Virus record (IMG/VR): IMGVR_UViG_3300032516_000045
Span: 1 to 48,094 of that record
Source of the DNA: a virus
Length of the DNA: 48,094 bases
Reading direction: 5' to 3' (one strand)
In this document: in pieces, positions 1,474 to 11,532 of the stretch
Layout of the letters: every line of letters starts with the position of its first letter
Position numbering within the stretch: the stretch's first letter is position 1
Notes under the pieces: generated by a model
Databases searched by the model: none
Told to the model about the DNA's origin: nothing
The model's input: the letters and a program-made list of their open reading frames with translations, nothing else
Program-made: the position numbers and the translations under genes

Positions 1474-1854
1474 ATGCGAAGAAAGGCAAGTCTATTTTTG
1501 GTCATGGTGGTAATACTGATGATAGTGACGGCCTGTGCATCCGATCAACCCTGGAGGAAGGCGGCGGTTACGACCTATGAGTTGACAGGAATCACCATCG
1601 AACAGTCCAGAATAACGGCTGAGGCTCTCTATGCCCAGAAGCTAATTACCGATGCACAACTGGTCAAAATTAAAGATGCCTATAACAAGGCCAGGTCAGC
1701 CTTCATCGCTGCGGGGAGTGCCTTAAAGGTTGCCGGTAAAGCGGAGGATGCCGCAAAAAGGGATGCCCTGTTGGTTGAGTATGACAAGCTTCTGAGTCAG
1801 TTCAAGGGTCTTGCTTATGAACTTATCACCCTGGTAAACCAATTTAAAAAATAA
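1474..1854 (+). CDS. Lipoprotein (o-spanin-like or lysis accessory)
   Basis: A basic start (MRRK) and hydrophobic stretch lead to a VTAC lipobox at about residue 21, so lipidation at that Cys is expected. The mature part (about 105 residues) is alanine- and lysine-rich and predicted helical. It is not proline-rich as Rz1-type o-spanins are. It follows the holin-like gene by 13 bases with its own AAAGGAGG site. A role in outer-membrane disruption or surface exclusion is inferred from context. Confidence 0.7.
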   Translation: MRRKASLFLVMVVILMIVTACASDQPWRKAAVTTYELTGITIEQSRITAEALYAQKLITDAQLVKIKDAYNKARSAFIAAGSALKVAGKAEDAAKRDALLVEYDKLLSQFKGLAYELITLVNQFKK

Positions 1855-1868
1855 GGAGGTGACTTGAT

Positions 1869-2051
1869 ATGGGAAAGGTTTTGTTGGCAATCGAATTATT
1901 GGTATTGGCAGGGCAGGCAGTTCCTAAGCTGGCCCCTGGAGTTAAAGACCTTCTAAATATGATAAAAGGGGAGCGGGTGAAAGACATCACTCAGGAAGAA
2001 TTTGAGGCCAGGATTGACGCAGCCATTGCTAAATTGCCGCCTTGGGATTGA
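1869..2051 (+). CDS. Small hypothetical protein, last gene of lysis cassette
   Basis: This 60-residue product has a hydrophobic N-terminal helix (about 3-22) and an acidic helical tail ending in PPWD. It is preceded by AAGGAGGTGAC and lies 14 bases after the lipoprotein gene. It is the last + strand gene before the bidirectional terminator. No family is recognised. Confidence 0.65.
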   Translation: MGKVLLAIELLVLAGQAVPKLAPGVKDLLNMIKGERVKDITQEEFEARIDAAIAKLPPWD

Positions 2052-2072
2052 GCAAGATTAAAATTAAAATTT

Positions 2073-2098
2073 GAGGGGGGGCCTTCGGGTCTCCCTTC
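2073..2098. terminator. UUCG-loop hairpin terminator between convergent operons
   Basis: An 11-bp stem (2073-2083 with 2088-2098, three G-T wobbles) closes a TTCG tetraloop. T-rich sequence follows it on the + strand (ATTTTATT), and on the - strand the flank is also T-rich. It lies exactly between the ends of the rightward lysis genes and the leftward operon, so it probably terminates both. Confidence 0.8.
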
Positions 2099-2321
2099 AT
2101 TTTATTCTCCAGCATCGTCCGAGTTTTTTATCCGTCTTTTTTACCAGAAACCTTTTTCCTTTTCCAAACCTACTCATCCAGGAATATGAACCGGTCCTGA
2201 CTTTCATAAGTATTTCTGTTTCAAACCCAAATGAATCCCCTATCTCCATCTTGGAAAATGGGTATTTTCCCCTATGCAAAGGGATAGGGATATTTTTCTC
2301 GATCTTAAACTGTGCTTCCAT
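2097..2321 (-). CDS. Small phage protein (GKYPF-type, unknown function)
   Basis: The 74-residue product has the layout of a small family common in phages: a short N-terminus, a GKYPF block, then MEIGDSF, and a basic aromatic C-terminus. No biochemical role is established for such proteins as far as I know. Its TGA stop overlaps the terminator hairpin. It is the last gene of the leftward operon. A GAGG-like site lies about 11 bases upstream of ATG. Confidence 0.6.
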   Translation of the reverse strand: MEAQFKIEKNIPIPLHRGKYPFSKMEIGDSFGFETEILMKVRTGSYSWMSRFGKGKRFLVKKTDKKLGRCWRIK

Positions 2322-2404
2322 TTGCGTGAATTACCTCGCCCTTACTGACGGCTTGAAGGGCTTTTGCCACCGACCCACCTTATTTTCCGCCTATTACACT
2401 GTTA

Positions 2405-2575
2405 TCACTCTTTAGATAAAGCCTTGATTGCCACACAAGCGGGTTTTCCAGTAATCCATGCGATCCATTGTCCATATCTTTTCTCGATGGCGGTTACTTT
2501 GTGCCCAGAGGAAGTCACTTTGCCTCCAATCACGGAATGGTAATTCACGATGTCTCCAACTTTGATATTTTCCAT
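2405..2575 (-). CDS. Small hypothetical protein, beta-rich
   Basis: ATG at 2575 is preceded by GGAGG with 7-base spacing. The product is 56 residues. It begins with a KVGDIV segment typical of small SH3-like or KOW-like barrels, but that assignment is only suggestive. It lies between the end gene of the leftward operon and an attC-like site, so it may be a gene-cassette cargo gene. The downstream gap 2322-2404 shows nothing convincing. Confidence 0.65.
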   Translation of the reverse strand: MENIKVGDIVNYHSVIGGKVTSSGHKVTAIEKRYGQWIAWITGKPACVAIKALSKE

Positions 2576-2603
2576 CTTGAGTCCTCCAAAATTATTAAAA
2601 AAA

Positions 2604-2656
2604 GTGCTAACAAGTTACTCCAGCCGATGCTTATAGCACCACCCGAAGTGGCTCTA
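2604..2656. repeat. attC-like site A (degenerate)
   Basis: The + strand reads GTGCTAACAAGTTACTCCAGC, then a TGC-TTATA-GCA hairpin with AGCC/GGCT outer pairing, and ends at CTATATTTC. The left side matches sites C, D and E (AACAAGTCACT), and the right junction matches sites C and D. No intact GTTRRRY box remains on the right, so this copy is degenerate. The stop codon of the neighbouring - strand gene (2654-2656) falls at its edge. Confidence 0.45.
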
Positions 2657-2836
2657 TATTTCTACGGTAATTTTATAAACTCCTGCCCCTAAGTGTTTGC
2701 TTTTTATTTTCATCAAATGACCCTGTATAATTGCAGTTCCCTCAGTATTCAATAACAATTCTCTCAATTCCTTTCTCGTAATTACCGTGCTTGCATAATG
2801 TGGGAAAGCATAAAAATTGTCAGGTAATTGCTTCAT
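2654..2836 (-). CDS. Small hypothetical protein, cassette-type
   Basis: The 60-residue product starts at ATG 2836 after GGAGAAGCC. Its start overlaps the stop of the preceding 37-residue ORF (ATGA), which indicates translational coupling. The TAG stop lies directly at attC-like site A. Its last codons (GAAATATAG) are the same as those of the 3611-3886 gene. No function is recognised. Confidence 0.65.
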   Translation of the reverse strand: MKQLPDNFYAFPHYASTVITRKELRELLLNTEGTAIIQGHLMKIKSKHLGAGVYKITVEI

Positions 2837-2946
2837 GGCTTCTCCTCAATCAGTTTTAGTAATTTAGTTAGACATTTAGATGTAGCTTTTGACATACAGT
2901 GTTCTTCGTATGCTTCATTATCAAACTCCTCAATCCCCTCCTTCAA
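2833..2946 (-). CDS. Small hypothetical protein (TTG start)
   Basis: This 37-residue ORF uses TTG at 2946 with GGAAGGA about 8 bases upstream. It ends in an ATGA overlap with the 2654-2836 gene and overlaps the end of the 2943-3251 gene. The product is acidic at the N-terminus and helical. The tight coupling on both sides is the main evidence. Confidence 0.5.
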   Translation of the reverse strand: MKEGIEEFDNEAYEEHCMSKATSKCLTKLLKLIEEKP

Positions 2947-3251
2947 TCCCTTAATCCTTCCTTTTCAATCAGTTCCCTAAGTCGTTTGCCTTCTTCGTTT
3001 CTTGTTGATCGCCATCCATGAGCCACTGCCAAGCCAACAATTTCATTTATTTCATCAACTAATAATTTCGCATAATCCTTTTGTGTCTTGATTAAAAATT
3101 CCAACTGTTTAACCTTTGCCTCCAACCTCTCACATTCGGAGAGGAGAAGTTTTGCGGAACCTAATGTGAGATACGGTTGATAATCCTTTATGTGGTCACA
3201 TGCCCGCTCCACTCTATTCTTAATCTCCTTTACCATCTCATCCCTTGTCAT
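2943..3251 (-). CDS. Small helical hypothetical protein
   Basis: The 102-residue, highly charged and predicted helical protein starts at ATG 3251 behind AAAGGGGGCAAAG. The ribosome binding site lies at the outer edge of attC-like site B, so the gene begins immediately next to the site. No domain is recognised. It may be a cassette cargo protein. Confidence 0.6.
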   Translation of the reverse strand: MTRDEMVKEIKNRVERACDHIKDYQPYLTLGSAKLLLSECERLEAKVKQLEFLIKTQKDYAKLLVDEINEIVGLAVAHGWRSTRNEEGKRLRELIEKEGLRD

Positions 3252-3254
3252 CTT

Positions 3255-3389
3255 TGCCCCCTTTCACTGGAGTTGACGGCCAATGGACAGCAGTCCCTCT
3301 ACATCCGACACGCTGCGATCCATACTCTCCGACTTTAACGGTATGTAGCAATCATCAACCATTGGCCGCAACTCACTTCTACGTTAGGC
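3255..3389. repeat. attC-like site B (long form)
   Basis: On the + strand the site runs from GCCCCCT to a perfect core GTTAGGC (3383-3389). Inner arms 3271-3286 and 3359-3373 pair over 15 bases (AGTTG/CGGCCAATGG). One unpaired extra A sits in the left arm, the mark of attC L'' boxes. The 72-base loop holds further inverted repeats (CTACAT/ATGTAG). The TCACTGGAG spacer matches site D. The left core box is degenerate. Confidence 0.5.
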
Positions 3390-3527
3390 ACCCTTCCTAT
3401 CCTTCATCTTCTTTTGGGGCGTTTTTTGGCAATGCTTCAAGTCGGAAATTACTCGAAAAATAGTTATGGTTTCGTATCCATGTTTGTGCAACATTAAATA
3501 TTTATCAATTAATCTCTGAATGGTCAT
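3384..3527 (-). CDS. Small basic hypothetical protein, cassette-type
   Basis: ATG at 3527 follows TAGGAGAATGGTT. The 47-residue product is basic (K-rich C-terminus) with helical character. Its TAA stop lies inside the GCCTAAC core of attC-like site B, and its ribosome binding site lies just outside site C. The gene therefore occupies exactly one putative cassette (site C to site B). No function is recognised. Confidence 0.6.
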   Translation of the reverse strand: MTIQRLIDKYLMLHKHGYETITIFRVISDLKHCQKTPQKKMKDRKGA

Positions 3528-3553
3528 AACCATTCTCCTATGAAATATAAAGT

Positions 3554-3608
3554 GCCTAACAAGTCACTCCAGCGGACGCCCAATGCGCCGCTGAGCTTTA
3601 CGTTCGGC
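3554..3608. repeat. attC-like site C (best preserved)
   Basis: The + strand shows GCCTAAC (3554-3560), the spacer AAGTCACTCC, arms AGCGGACGC and GCGCCGCT around a CCAAT loop, and GTTCGGC (3602-3608). The arms pair perfectly except for one extrahelical A in the left arm, as in integron attC sites. The outer boxes pair with one mismatch. Length and order fit a short attC: R''-spacer-L''-loop-L'-spacer-R'. The bulge side suggests the + strand is the canonical top strand. Confidence 0.6.
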
Positions 3609-3610
3609 GA

Positions 3611-3886
3611 CTATATTTCTGGTATATAAAGTTTAGGACCACCGTTGCCATAATCTTGCCACATTTCTTCATGGCCTCGGCAAGCATGAACCCAGAATTC
3701 CCCTCCATCGGGATCGTCGCCCATCGAATCTATTACCTCGACATTTCCCCAGCATTGTCCTTTGTCCTGTCCAAGCGCCCAACAGTCTGCACCACAACAG
3801 TTTTTGGGATTGTAGGTCGCCGAACAAGTCACTGGAGCGGATGGCTTATAGCCATCCTTTTCTTGAACTTCATTCTCATTTACCAT
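3611..3886 (-). CDS. Cysteine-rich small protein, reading through an attC-like site
   Basis: The 91-residue ORF has seven Cys, including CCGADC and a later C-x2-H pair, and ends in YIPEI. This resembles Cys-rich phage proteins that probably bind a metal. ATG 3886 lies inside attC-like site D, so residues up to about 22 are encoded by the site itself. An in-frame GTG at about 3837 is an alternative start near the site edge. The TAG stop abuts site C. Function unknown. Confidence 0.55.
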   Translation of the reverse strand: MVNENEVQEKDGYKPSAPVTCSATYNPKNCCGADCWALGQDKGQCWGNVEVIDSMGDDPDGGEFWVHACRGHEEMWQDYGNGGPKLYIPEI

Positions 3887-3919
3887 ATCGAACCTTCACC
3901 GCTCAGTTTTTCGTTATAT
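3819..3919. repeat. attC-like site D
   Basis: The + strand begins GCCGAACAAGTCACTGGAGCGG and contains a perfect hairpin (GGATGGC-TTATA-GCCATCC). It ends with ACCGCTCAG and GTTATAT. AGCGG and CCGCT pair across the site. The left box is the exact complement of the right box of site C, so sites C and D look like the two ends of one cassette. The right core is degenerate. Confidence 0.45.
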
Positions 3920-4036
3920 TTCAACACAACAACCATATCCATCCTTGCGCAACTTTGTTAAAATGGCACAAAAACGTGTATTCATGATCGGACAAATCTT
4001 ATCTTTTTTTGGGCAATCTTTTGGTTTTTTCTTCAT
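3914..4036 (-). CDS. Small Cys-rich protein, cassette-type
   Basis: ATG 4036 overlaps the stop of the upstream zinc-ribbon gene (TGATG) and follows GGAG. The 40-residue product is Lys- and Cys-rich (CPKK, IC, FC and CC positions), hinting at metal binding. It ends in VEI-stop, coded GAAATATAA, at the edge of attC-like site D. This is the same ending as the 2654 gene and close to that of the 3611 gene. Confidence 0.55.
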   Translation of the reverse strand: MKKKPKDCPKKDKICPIMNTRFCAILTKLRKDGYGCCVEI

Positions 4037-4221
4037 CACTCCAATCCCATTTTTAGGGCAATGGCATCTAACGATTTAGATATTCGATCAATCCTTTTTG
4101 CATCGCATTCCGGACACCAAAAGGGACTCCATTTATACTCTGTGAACTCCCTTTTGCAATCGGCGCAAACTTGCCGAATCGGGATTCCGTTTAATTTGAC
4201 CTTTTTAAGCCTTCTTCCCAT
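4036..4221 (-). CDS. Zinc-ribbon small protein
   Basis: The 61-residue product has two CxxC pairs (CADC and CPEC) separated by about 16 residues, a classic zinc ribbon, and a helical C-terminus. ATG 4221 is preferred because GAGGT lies 6 bases upstream. An in-frame ATG at 4233 lacks a binding site. It is separated from the next upstream gene by an attC-like half-site. Nucleic-acid binding is plausible but unproven. Confidence 0.65.
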   Translation of the reverse strand: MGRRLKKVKLNGIPIRQVCADCKREFTEYKWSPFWCPECDAKRIDRISKSLDAIALKMGLE

Positions 4222-4244
4222 TGCGGACCTCATTGGTAAAAATA

Positions 4245-4260
4245 TAACAAGTCACTCCAG
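4245..4260. repeat. attC-like half-site E
   Basis: TAACAAGTCACTCCAG is identical to the left half of site C (3557-3572). No right half follows; the next bases run into the stop of the 4268-4936 gene. This marks the boundary between the early genes and the cassette-like cluster. Confidence 0.5.
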
Positions 4261-4267
4261 TTAAAAA

Positions 4268-4936
4268 TCATATTTGAGTTTTTTTACTAATACTGTGCAC
4301 TCCTGGTATTGATAATGCCTGTTTGTAAGCCCTGGCCTGCCCATTGAGAAACGTCATGTCAGCCTGAACCGATTGAAGAGGAGCCTTCCCCTGAGAGATT
4401 GCCATGATCAAATCTTTCAAATTGATAACCTCCGCACTCCAGGTCTCCCTGATGTGAGATTCCTTTGATTTCGGAATTTCGGAAGCAACCCGGATGGGCG
4501 GAACATAGACGGGTTCGGCCATGATCTGCTCGGCCTCCTCTTTCTCCCCGGCCTCCTCCGCTTCGATGGCCTGGCGAAGCGCCTCCTCTTCTGCCCTCTT
4601 CCGGGCCTCCTCCTGGAGCCGCCTCTCTTCTTCCCGACGCCTGGCCTCCTGCTCTTCAGTCCACTTGACCATGATCTGATTCAGGTGCTCTTTGGCATTG
4701 TTGAGCTTCTCGAGGTGGGGCCGGAAGAAATCTATGATCCTCTTCTTACTTTCATCCAAAGGCCGGGTCTGGGCCATGCGCTCCTCTTCGAGCATCTTGA
4801 TCCTTTGTTTGATCCGGCCCATATAAATCTGACCGACTTCATAATCCTCCCTATTGCTCACCACAAGGGATTGAGCCTCAAAGACTTCCTGTAGGGCTGA
4901 TTTTTCTATTTCAGGTTTGATGATTTGAAGTTCCAT
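4268..4936 (-). CDS. Coiled-coil early protein
   Basis: The 222-residue protein has a central coiled coil rich in E, R and A (about 40-145). A C-terminal part with ETWSAEV and IPGVHS motifs follows, typical of a widespread family of phage early proteins adjacent to recombination genes. Biochemical function is not known to me. ATG 4936 is chosen because GGAGG is well spaced and TAATG overlaps the nuclease stop. An ATG at 4951 is less likely. Confidence 0.75.
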   Translation of the reverse strand: MELQIIKPEIEKSALQEVFEAQSLVVSNREDYEVGQIYMGRIKQRIKMLEEERMAQTRPLDESKKRIIDFFRPHLEKLNNAKEHLNQIMVKWTEEQEARRREEERRLQEEARKRAEEEALRQAIEAEEAGEKEEAEQIMAEPVYVPPIRVASEIPKSKESHIRETWSAEVINLKDLIMAISQGKAPLQSVQADMTFLNGQARAYKQALSIPGVHSISKKTQI

Positions 4937-5493
4937 TAGTTCCTCCTCCATCTGACAAAATAGAGCATCGAAGCATAAGCCTTAAACGCTTCTCGCATCT
5001 CTGATGTCTTGTAAGGTTTCACTTTGGGCGGGCCACCATCTGGATCGAGGTAAACCCCCATTGGGGATTTTGCCATGTCGTGCATACCATGACAAATTAA
5101 AGCTGACCATTGCAGGGCTAATTGAAGAATATGCCATTTATCTGGGGCTCCAGACTTGATATCAAGCAAAGGGAGCCGGTCAATCTTCGTGCCGACCATG
5201 AGTTCAGGATGCCAAATAGGATATTCGATTTCGACTGCCGTGTAGTTCTGGTCTGCCCTGAACTGCTTCCAGGATAAAAGATACCCCTTGATCTCATCAG
5301 CGACAGAATCCTCATCGAGAGTCCCCTTATCAAAATATTCTGTTGCAAGATGGACAGCTGTCCCGCGCCCCATATACCAGGGATCACCACCCCGGATGAG
5401 TCCCGCCTCGGCGATTGTGGAGGTCAACCCATCCAAGGGCTTATTGTCGAGATAGTAAGTATGTGTTGGAATATCAAGAATTAGATTTGACAT
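4936..5493 (-). CDS. PD-(D/E)XK family nuclease (RecB/Cas4-like)
   Basis: The 185-residue protein shows the RecB-nuclease motif order: GTAVH at about 44-48, D105 in the GTKID strand, LDIKSG (D111, K113), and Q124 in the following helix. These are the metal-binding and catalytic residues of PD-(D/E)XK exonucleases that supply single-strand ends for phage recombination. It lies next to a possible strand-annealing protein, consistent with a recombination pair. The last codons overlap the coiled-coil gene start. Confidence 0.75.
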   Translation of the reverse strand: MSNLILDIPTHTYYLDNKPLDGLTSTIAEAGLIRGGDPWYMGRGTAVHLATEYFDKGTLDEDSVADEIKGYLLSWKQFRADQNYTAVEIEYPIWHPELMVGTKIDRLPLLDIKSGAPDKWHILQLALQWSALICHGMHDMAKSPMGVYLDPDGGPPKVKPYKTSEMREAFKAYASMLYFVRWRRN

Positions 5494-5746
5494 ATTCTTT
5501 TATCTTTAATTTCTTGTATAAATGTCCCATTATTGGATTAAGGGCTATGGTTCCACCCAATTTTTTCCCTTTATAATATTTTTTAGCCTCTTTCAATAAT
5601 TTAGTTGCATGACCTTTTCTTTTTTCTTTACTTTCGATATCATAAAGTGTTGCCCAATCATCCCCTACCCCAAAATGAGCGATCGAAGAATTAATCCTCC
5701 ATTCATCAAGTTCCATCCCCAAAATCATTACTTTTTCAGGTCTCAC
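5474..5746 (-). CDS. GNAT-like acetyltransferase (short)
   Basis: The 90-residue product contains the GNAT acetyl-CoA loop (KEKRKGHATKLL, about 40-52) and the C-terminal ALNPIMGHLYKKL segment. It lacks much of the N-terminal part of a full GNAT fold, so it may be minimal or reduced. ATGA couples it to the upstream gene, and it overlaps the nuclease gene by 20 bases. The substrate is unknown. Confidence 0.6.
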   Translation of the reverse strand: MRPEKVMILGMELDEWRINSSIAHFGVGDDWATLYDIESKEKRKGHATKLLKEAKKYYKGKKLGGTIALNPIMGHLYKKLKIKEYVKSNS

Positions 5747-10887: not shown

Positions 10888-11169
10888 TTATTCCCCCCCG
10901 TCAACCTTCTTCTCCCTCTTCTTCTTCCCGTAAAAAGTAGATCCTTCGTCGGCATCAGGAAGAGAGGCGTCTGCTTTCGGTGGAGGAAATTCAACAATCT
11001 TCACCTTCCGAGTCCTTTTCTTCCTCGGCTTCTTCTCTGCCGGCACATGAATGTTCCCCACCAGAATCTTCGTGTCGATCGCCCCGGTGATCTCGTCAAT
11101 GGCATCATTAACCAGCGTCTTTGCTCTCTCTGCTATTGCCCGTAGTTCTGAAACATGAATTGTGTCCAT
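10888..11169 (-). CDS. Small basic hypothetical protein
   Basis: The 93-residue protein has a helical N-terminus (about 1-36). A K/R-rich, proline-containing and apparently disordered tail (about 45-93) follows, resembling nucleic-acid-binding tails. ATG 11169 follows AAAGGAGAAAA. No family is recognised. Confidence 0.65.
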   Translation of the reverse strand: MDTIHVSELRAIAERAKTLVNDAIDEITGAIDTKILVGNIHVPAEKKPRKKRTRKVKIVEFPPPKADASLPDADEGSTFYGKKKREKKVDGGE

Positions 11170-11193
11170 TTTTCTCCTTTCTGGGGATAATAA

Positions 11194-11532
11194 TTAATTT
11201 CCACCAAGTGTCACTGATTTTCCTCCGCTACTAATAATTTCCATTGTCGCTCCATCTTTTTTTAGACCGGCATCCATCTTTTCGATAATCTTAAAAAGTT
11301 CTCCCTGATTGGGATCCCAATAAAACGTCGAGGTATCCTTCACTTTGTCCTTCGTAAAGGAAATGGAGACCTCACAGATGTTCTTTCCCTTGGCGATACC
11401 AATCTTTGCACCGAAAGAAATGGTGAGTGGATCATCGCCGGCATTTACCCATGCCTGCTCCAAATCTTCAGCATAATCTTTCAGCATGGCCTCAATCTTG
11501 GACGGGATCAATAGTATTGCGCCCTTAATCAT
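11194..11532 (-). CDS. Conserved early phage protein, unknown function
   Basis: The 112-residue mixed alpha/beta product has a helical start (about 10-30), then beta strands containing FGAKIGIAKG and ICEVSISFTKDKVKD segments. ATG 11532 follows AAAGGAGAAAG. I recognise the pattern from phage early regions but no function. Confidence 0.65.
   Translation of the reverse strand: MIKGAILLIPSKIEAMLKDYAEDLEQAWVNAGDDPLTISFGAKIGIAKGKNICEVSISFTKDKVKDTSTFYWDPNQGELFKIIEKMDAGLKKDGATMEIISSGGKSVTLGGN

Follow-up and report, generated by a model that had tools for sequence, protein, structure and literature searches.

The stretch of DNA analysed here, referred to below as the window, is a virus record from IMG/VR, 48,094 bp long. 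It has a terminal repeat, the same 128 bp standing at both ends, and encodes a terminase, a portal and head and tail proteins. A minus-strand early operon that includes exonuclease-type and HNH genes extends over 2.1-12.9 kb. At its distal end, beside the exonuclease-type recombination genes, small genes alternate with sites resembling attC, the recombination sites by which bacteria trade antibiotic-resistance genes. Among isolated phages, even the nearest match to the window's TerL has less than 30% identity, and no host could be assigned from TerL. A blastn search for distant matches between the array and annotated phages gave chance matches only, and an Rfam search of 1500-5500 returned nothing relevant. 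When two of the cassette proteins were compared with IMG/VR, one was without homologue and the other had only a 22-residue match. A related phage, L004, has 27 genes in common with the window at a mean amino-acid identity of 63%.

attC sites of the window

The 16-mer TAACAAGTCACTCCAG occurs at 2608, 3557, 3822 and 4245. With up to three mismatches allowed, it gave four matches in the window and 0-1 in eight block-shuffled genomes, bearing out a sequence-only reading of this DNA that had described a shared repeat at attC-like sites. All sites lie on the plus strand. Site C (3554-3608) is canonical, with the R'' box GCCTAAC (3554-3560), the R' box GTTCGGC and a hairpin in which the left arm (L'') carries one extra base, the lone unpaired base that the earlier reading had noted. 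Site D (3819-3919) has the R'' box GCCGAAC, L'' CTGGAGCGG, the R' box GTTATAT and a good right arm; its left arm is the same as that of site C and its terminal loop exceeds 50 nt. Site B (3262-3389) has lost its left R'' box and forms a long hairpin, yet retains a perfect R' box, GTTAGGC, at 3383-3389; the perfect cores previously noted in B and C are thus both present. Site A (2605-2676; R'' TGCTAAC, L'' ACTCCAGCCG) is degraded, its right half reading GGTAATT where GTTRRRY is expected. Half-site E (4242-4260) consists of the left half of an attC site, ATATAAC plus AAGTCACTCCAG, the right half being absent at the array boundary. The diagnostic attC features (RYYYAAC and GTTRRRY boxes, imperfect arms and the extra L'' base) are all found in C and in part in A, B, D and E. 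Folding of the bottom DNA strand gave z scores of about -3.0 for C, -3.5 for B, -2.8 for D and -1.6 for A. The array is partly worn, and with only one of five sites canonical it may no longer be mobile.

The identity of site C was assessed with a covariance model built on the known attC fold from the arms of 26 bacterial attC sites (plasmids and bacterial genomes); sites retrieved by a window-derived pattern were left out of the training, and the fold is backed by covariation within the bacterial set. Run with filters off over the whole 48-kb window, the model detected site C at 34.8 bits (E 3.3e-6) and did not detect A, B, D or E; the two matches that came next (12.2 and 9.4 bits) appear to be due to chance. 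Of the sites that the sequence-only reading had put forward for such a search, site C alone was recovered, and the complete lack of model hits that would have spoken against its proposal did not occur. The top blastn matches of site C among plasmids, 78-81% identical, were the attC sites of the dfrB2 (R388), OXA-732 and lnu(F) cassettes, and almost all of the plasmid matches listed were integron cassette attC sites in the gene-to-attC orientation. Because the genes of these plasmid records read into attC in the direction equal to the plus strand of the window, the polarity of the phage site is plus. A stricter attC pattern gave no match in IMG/VR.

Two further elements lie near these sites. 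An inner hairpin of site B (GTTGACGGCCAATGG ... CCATTGGCCGC, 3272-3368) recurs without attC arms in another relative, L005, at about 12180-12080 on the minus strand; site B may be an attC site with another hairpin family inside its loop. A possible boundary for entry into the array is placed at 2366-2408 on the plus strand (GCCACCGACCC...CTATTACACTG/TTATCA, the slash marking the boundary), and its motif is partly common to L004 (TTATTGCACTG/TTATCT). A second intergenic element, ACAGGGTCGGGCAGG ... GCCACCGACCCTGTTA, has two copies on the minus strand of L004 (about 12330-12213 and 11305-11230), and its right half, found at 2366-2408 of the window, adjoins the possible entry point.

Intergenic operon hairpins acting at the RNA level, in processing or translation control, could have come to resemble attC by convergence. 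Each site does lie between co-transcribed genes, some of which start or stop within it, and other hairpin families occupy the same intergenic regions. We nevertheless regard this explanation as very improbable: the match to bacterial attC sites extends to the extra L'' base and the box consensus, the hairpins have no RNA family match, and the matching of boxes between neighbouring sites, described below, would be left unexplained.

Cassette boundaries and cassette genes

Each cassette of an integron array takes in the R' box of the site before it, and that box should therefore pair with the R'' box of the following site. The facing boxes of the window are exact reverse complements in three intervals: GTTAGGC and GCCTAAC between B and C, GTTCGGC and GCCGAAC between C and D, and GTTATAT and ATATAAC between D and E. 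The C-D pair is off-consensus and still matches. Across 12 viral records, the window included, facing boxes R'(n) and R''(n+1) were perfect in 30 of 50 neighbour pairs, whereas 2,000 shuffles averaged 4.1 and never exceeded 11; the two boxes within one site were perfect in only 6 of 65. Facing boxes were again perfect in 32 of 58 pairs from a second set of viral loci (shuffle mean 4.3, maximum 12). Exact facing boxes are the signature of cassettes, and cutting at the G/TT points of successive sites delimits a B-C cassette at 3384-3602 (plus strand; ends TTAGGC and GCCTAAC) and a C-D cassette at 3603-3913 (plus strand; ends TTCGGC and GCCGAAC). Arrays in the sense of at least two serial attC sites without a linked integrase are clear in L004, L041 and L039; the window has one model-positive site, one near-complete site (D), two degenerate sites and a half-site.

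Small genes fill the intervals, as the earlier reading had it, with the correction that they lie on the minus strand, along the phage operon and antisense to attC. The B-C interval holds a gene of 47 amino acids (3384-3527, minus) that terminates on the TAA of GCCTAAC within the R' box of site B, confirming that a stop codon lies in a core box; the stop codon of the site-adjoining gene was inside the R' box in 30 of 63 cases. A gene of 91 amino acids (3611-3886, minus), assigned to no family at the curated cut-off, has its ATG and about its first 22 codons inside attC D, its start falling within the terminal loop. Between D and half-site E, a zinc-ribbon-like gene of 65 amino acids (4036-4233, minus) matched the zinc-ribbon region of PF01155 (HypA) at 23.2 bits, below the curated cut-off. 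The A-B interval contains a coiled-coil-like gene of 102 amino acids (2943-3251, minus) and one of 60 amino acids that ends at site A (2654-2836, minus); a gene of 56 amino acids lies left of site A (2405-2575, minus).

Genes of arrays elsewhere show further features. Three genes of L066 (9328-9570, 10864-11061 and 11090-11407) have the common N-terminus MTDTEKDEALSGVAIDPM, apparently encoded in near-identical attC sites, and the third (11090-11407) diverges after it, as if attC gave a common start to different proteins. Array genes encoding DNA methyltransferases (N6_N4_Mtase, MT-A70) and a PAPS-reductase-domain protein lie at L133 8092-8844 and 8945-9706, L124 7116-7925 (assigned from its sequence only), L047 17813-18607 and L052 1346-2050. 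Upstream of the array in L041, a 451-aa ORF (3192-4547, minus) has an HNH-like motif and by eye resembles IscB-type nucleases.

Inverted gene polarity and exchange between phages

In the window the attC sites are on the plus strand and every cassette gene is on the minus strand, a reversal relative to attC that is absent from the sequence-only reading. In five phage contigs, the window included, all model matches were antisense to the surrounding operon. The window shares its antisense layout with L004, the 66-kb contig of L039, the 94-kb contig of L041, the 75-kb contig of L040 and L066-L069. The contig of L039 contains two opposed arrays, both antisense to the genes that they hold, and that of L041 again contains two; opposed arrays of this kind within one phage (G011, G013) are each antisense to their own operon. 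A few isolated small same-sense calls in the large contigs of L039, L040 and L041 are probably gene-caller errors. For most contigs genes were called by a simple script, and the annotated phages of Qi et al. were used as a check independent of our own gene caller: by the depositors' gene tables H101 and MW202573 are antisense and TJE1 is same-sense. P12002L had no attC model match.

Two broader pattern scans of IMG/VR added 53 loci (35 antisense, 10 same-sense and 8 mixed). A fairer count, after removal of duplicates (L072/L092, L094/L097, L118/L128 and L122/L134) and related phages, is 30 antisense versus 9 same-sense, with L096, whose contig carries an intI gene, left out. Among terminase-positive viral loci, nine are antisense and two same-sense. 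In bacterial loci the proportions are reversed, with 32 same-sense and 3 antisense (viral versus bacterial, Fisher p ~1e-9); that is, genes read towards their attC, as in canonical cassettes, in 32 of 35 bacterial loci but not in the window or most viral loci. Normal polarity was seen in ten viral loci and TJE1; an integron integrase is present in two of those loci, which may derive from a bacterium or a prophage. The inversion in phages is a strong tendency and not a law, and its contrast with bacteria suggests a version of the cassette-swapping system particular to phages.

This polarity could reflect expression alone: cassettes would enter in random orientation, those whose genes are read by the operon would be kept, and strand exposure would play no part. 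All cassette genes do follow the operon direction, and the opposed arrays of G011 and G013, each antisense to its own operon, fit as well. Selection of this kind fixes the gene relative to the operon and not attC relative to the gene, however, and both polarities would then be expected, whereas same-sense viral loci are a minority. On balance we think it unlikely that expression accounts for the inversion, though this is the most credible of the alternatives.

The arrays also differ between related phages. In L004, attC sites begin just beyond the homologue of window gene 4268-4951, and the two arrays have no genes in common; the sequence-only reading had named conservation of the same spacers in the same order among relatives as evidence against its view, and at the same place this relative has an unrelated array. 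In the stretches examined of two other relatives, L005 and L006, the attC model had no match. Outside the window lineage, L124 and L133 come from different samples and share 99.97% identity over 6,265 bp, yet their arrays differ, and L124, L131 and L133 have single cassettes in common at 97-100% identity with breakpoints at G/TT. From CGTTATATTCCC onward L131 and L124 have the same sequence, the attC arms before it being unrelated; from GTTATGTGGAAT onward the same is true of L124 and L133, where attC precedes in one and a non-attC leader in the other. A leader of about 95 bp ending TTGTTAATCAATG/GTTA (L133 7045-7140 and 7289-7389, L124 6179-6277, L131 562-659) is followed by four different cassettes and is a candidate attI-like entry point in a phage without integrase. 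Contigs with no other relationship, such as L070, L097 and L110, also have single cassettes in common. Cassettes are thus exchanged independently of their flanks, both between the window and L004 and among L124, L131 and L133. A blastn search of the richest array (L044) against annotated phages found no match. The same attC-bearing phage segment was seen in L040 and L042, contigs of 75 and 39 kb from different metagenomes.

These junctions bear on the possibility that the sites are frozen relics of a bacterial array captured once by illegitimate recombination, which then decayed while its repeats recombined by homology (RecT/Erf-type annealing) without an integrase. The degenerate state of sites A, B and E, the adjoining exonuclease-type recombination genes and a record without integrase would all suit such a history. 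Facing boxes, however, agree between cassettes much more often than chance would give, which boxes within a site do not; this pattern needs breakpoints at G/TT, and near-identical phages differ by whole G/TT-cut cassettes, including junctions whose left sides are unrelated. We accordingly judge relics to be improbable, less so than RNA hairpins.

A proposed host integrase in trans and comparison with known integrons

The whole window record lacks a PF00589 (tyrosine recombinase) domain, and the window has no complete integron (intI and attI). No TIGR02249 match exceeded the cut-off in related phage contigs. Among 50 viral contigs, intI exceeded the cut-off in three, namely two same-sense loci and L096, which has one site, scored as antisense. 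L096 is doubtful, and the other antisense-array phage contigs searched contained no integron integrase. With the model match of site C, the plasmid attC matches, the three facing-box intervals and the different cassettes that occupy this position in the related phage L004, these searches uphold the earlier proposal of a cassette run without integrase at the distal end of the operon. We put at roughly 80% the probability that the region is a short, partly decayed integron cassette array with inverted genes, in a phage without tyrosine recombinase, presumably served by a host IntI in trans.

Under this reading each cassette would comprise a small phage-operon gene and an attC site, and a presumed host integron integrase (no integrase-bearing host was identified) would recombine the folded bottom strands of the phage sites. 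In the mRNA, attC lies 5' of its own gene, which may start in the attC loop and often terminates on the TAA of its own RYYTAA end box. Given the position of the array, distal in the early operon, a swapped-in cassette would be expressed with the operon, without a Pc promoter. Folding and recombination of attC proceed more readily with the bottom strand on the lagging-strand template, an arrangement that chromosomal integrons mostly avoid (PMC8946536). With inverted polarity, the attC bottom strand is the coding strand, and hence the lagging-strand template if genes run with the fork. GC skew in the window switches sign where the gene directions do, near 12 kb and near 2 kb, which agrees with co-directional forks yet could reflect transcription. 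A broader proposal, that phages keep a largely private pool of inverted-polarity cassettes, exchanged by host integron integrases at operon-end hotspots, with the inversion placing the recombinogenic attC strand on the exposed coding (lagging-template) strand, is tentative, and we rate it slightly below even odds.

The sequence-only reading considered such arrays unusual in phages. This holds only in part, since a report on them appeared in 2023 and they occur in dozens of IMG/VR contigs. Qi et al. describe attC clusters without integrase (CALINs) in temperate, virulent and uncharacterised phages and bottom-strand recombination by IntI1 at five of six phage sites, including those of PH101 (H101) and TJE1 (PMC9892861). 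The integrase-less clusters and methyltransferase cassettes of that study resemble those found here. It describes the cassettes of PH101 and TJE1 as typical, whereas in the present analysis PH101 and MW202573 are antisense to attC, and no mention of cassette exchange between phages or of a conserved array position was found in the text examined. No report of either inverted polarity or inter-phage exchange was found in open full text, subscription papers and preprints being outside reach; phage attC clusters are already known, and these two aspects are apparently new to the open literature.

If the proposal is true, integrons serve phages, too, as a gene-shuffling platform, in a cassette layout distinct from that of bacteria, and a phage cassette that entered a bacterial attI would lie antisense to Pc. 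Strand exposure and expression would be oppositely coupled in phage and bacterial arrays, offering a direct test of the role of attC polarity. Small phage genes, often for DNA methyltransferases or unknown proteins of 50-100 residues, would be swapped as units and are candidates for anti-defence functions. Tools for attC detection that do not compare site strand with gene strand would overlook the inversion.

The phage arrays are like the sedentary chromosomal and mobile integrons of bacteria in attC sequence and structure, in the R'/R'' rule and in their runs of small unrelated genes. They differ in being without intI or a known attI, in reversed gene polarity and in expression from a phage operon instead of Pc. 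Another close comparison is with the class 1 cassettes dfrB2 (R388), OXA-732 and lnu(F), whose attC sites of about 55-60 bp have the same site polarity as site C; their genes read into attC, whereas the phage gene reads away from its own attC.
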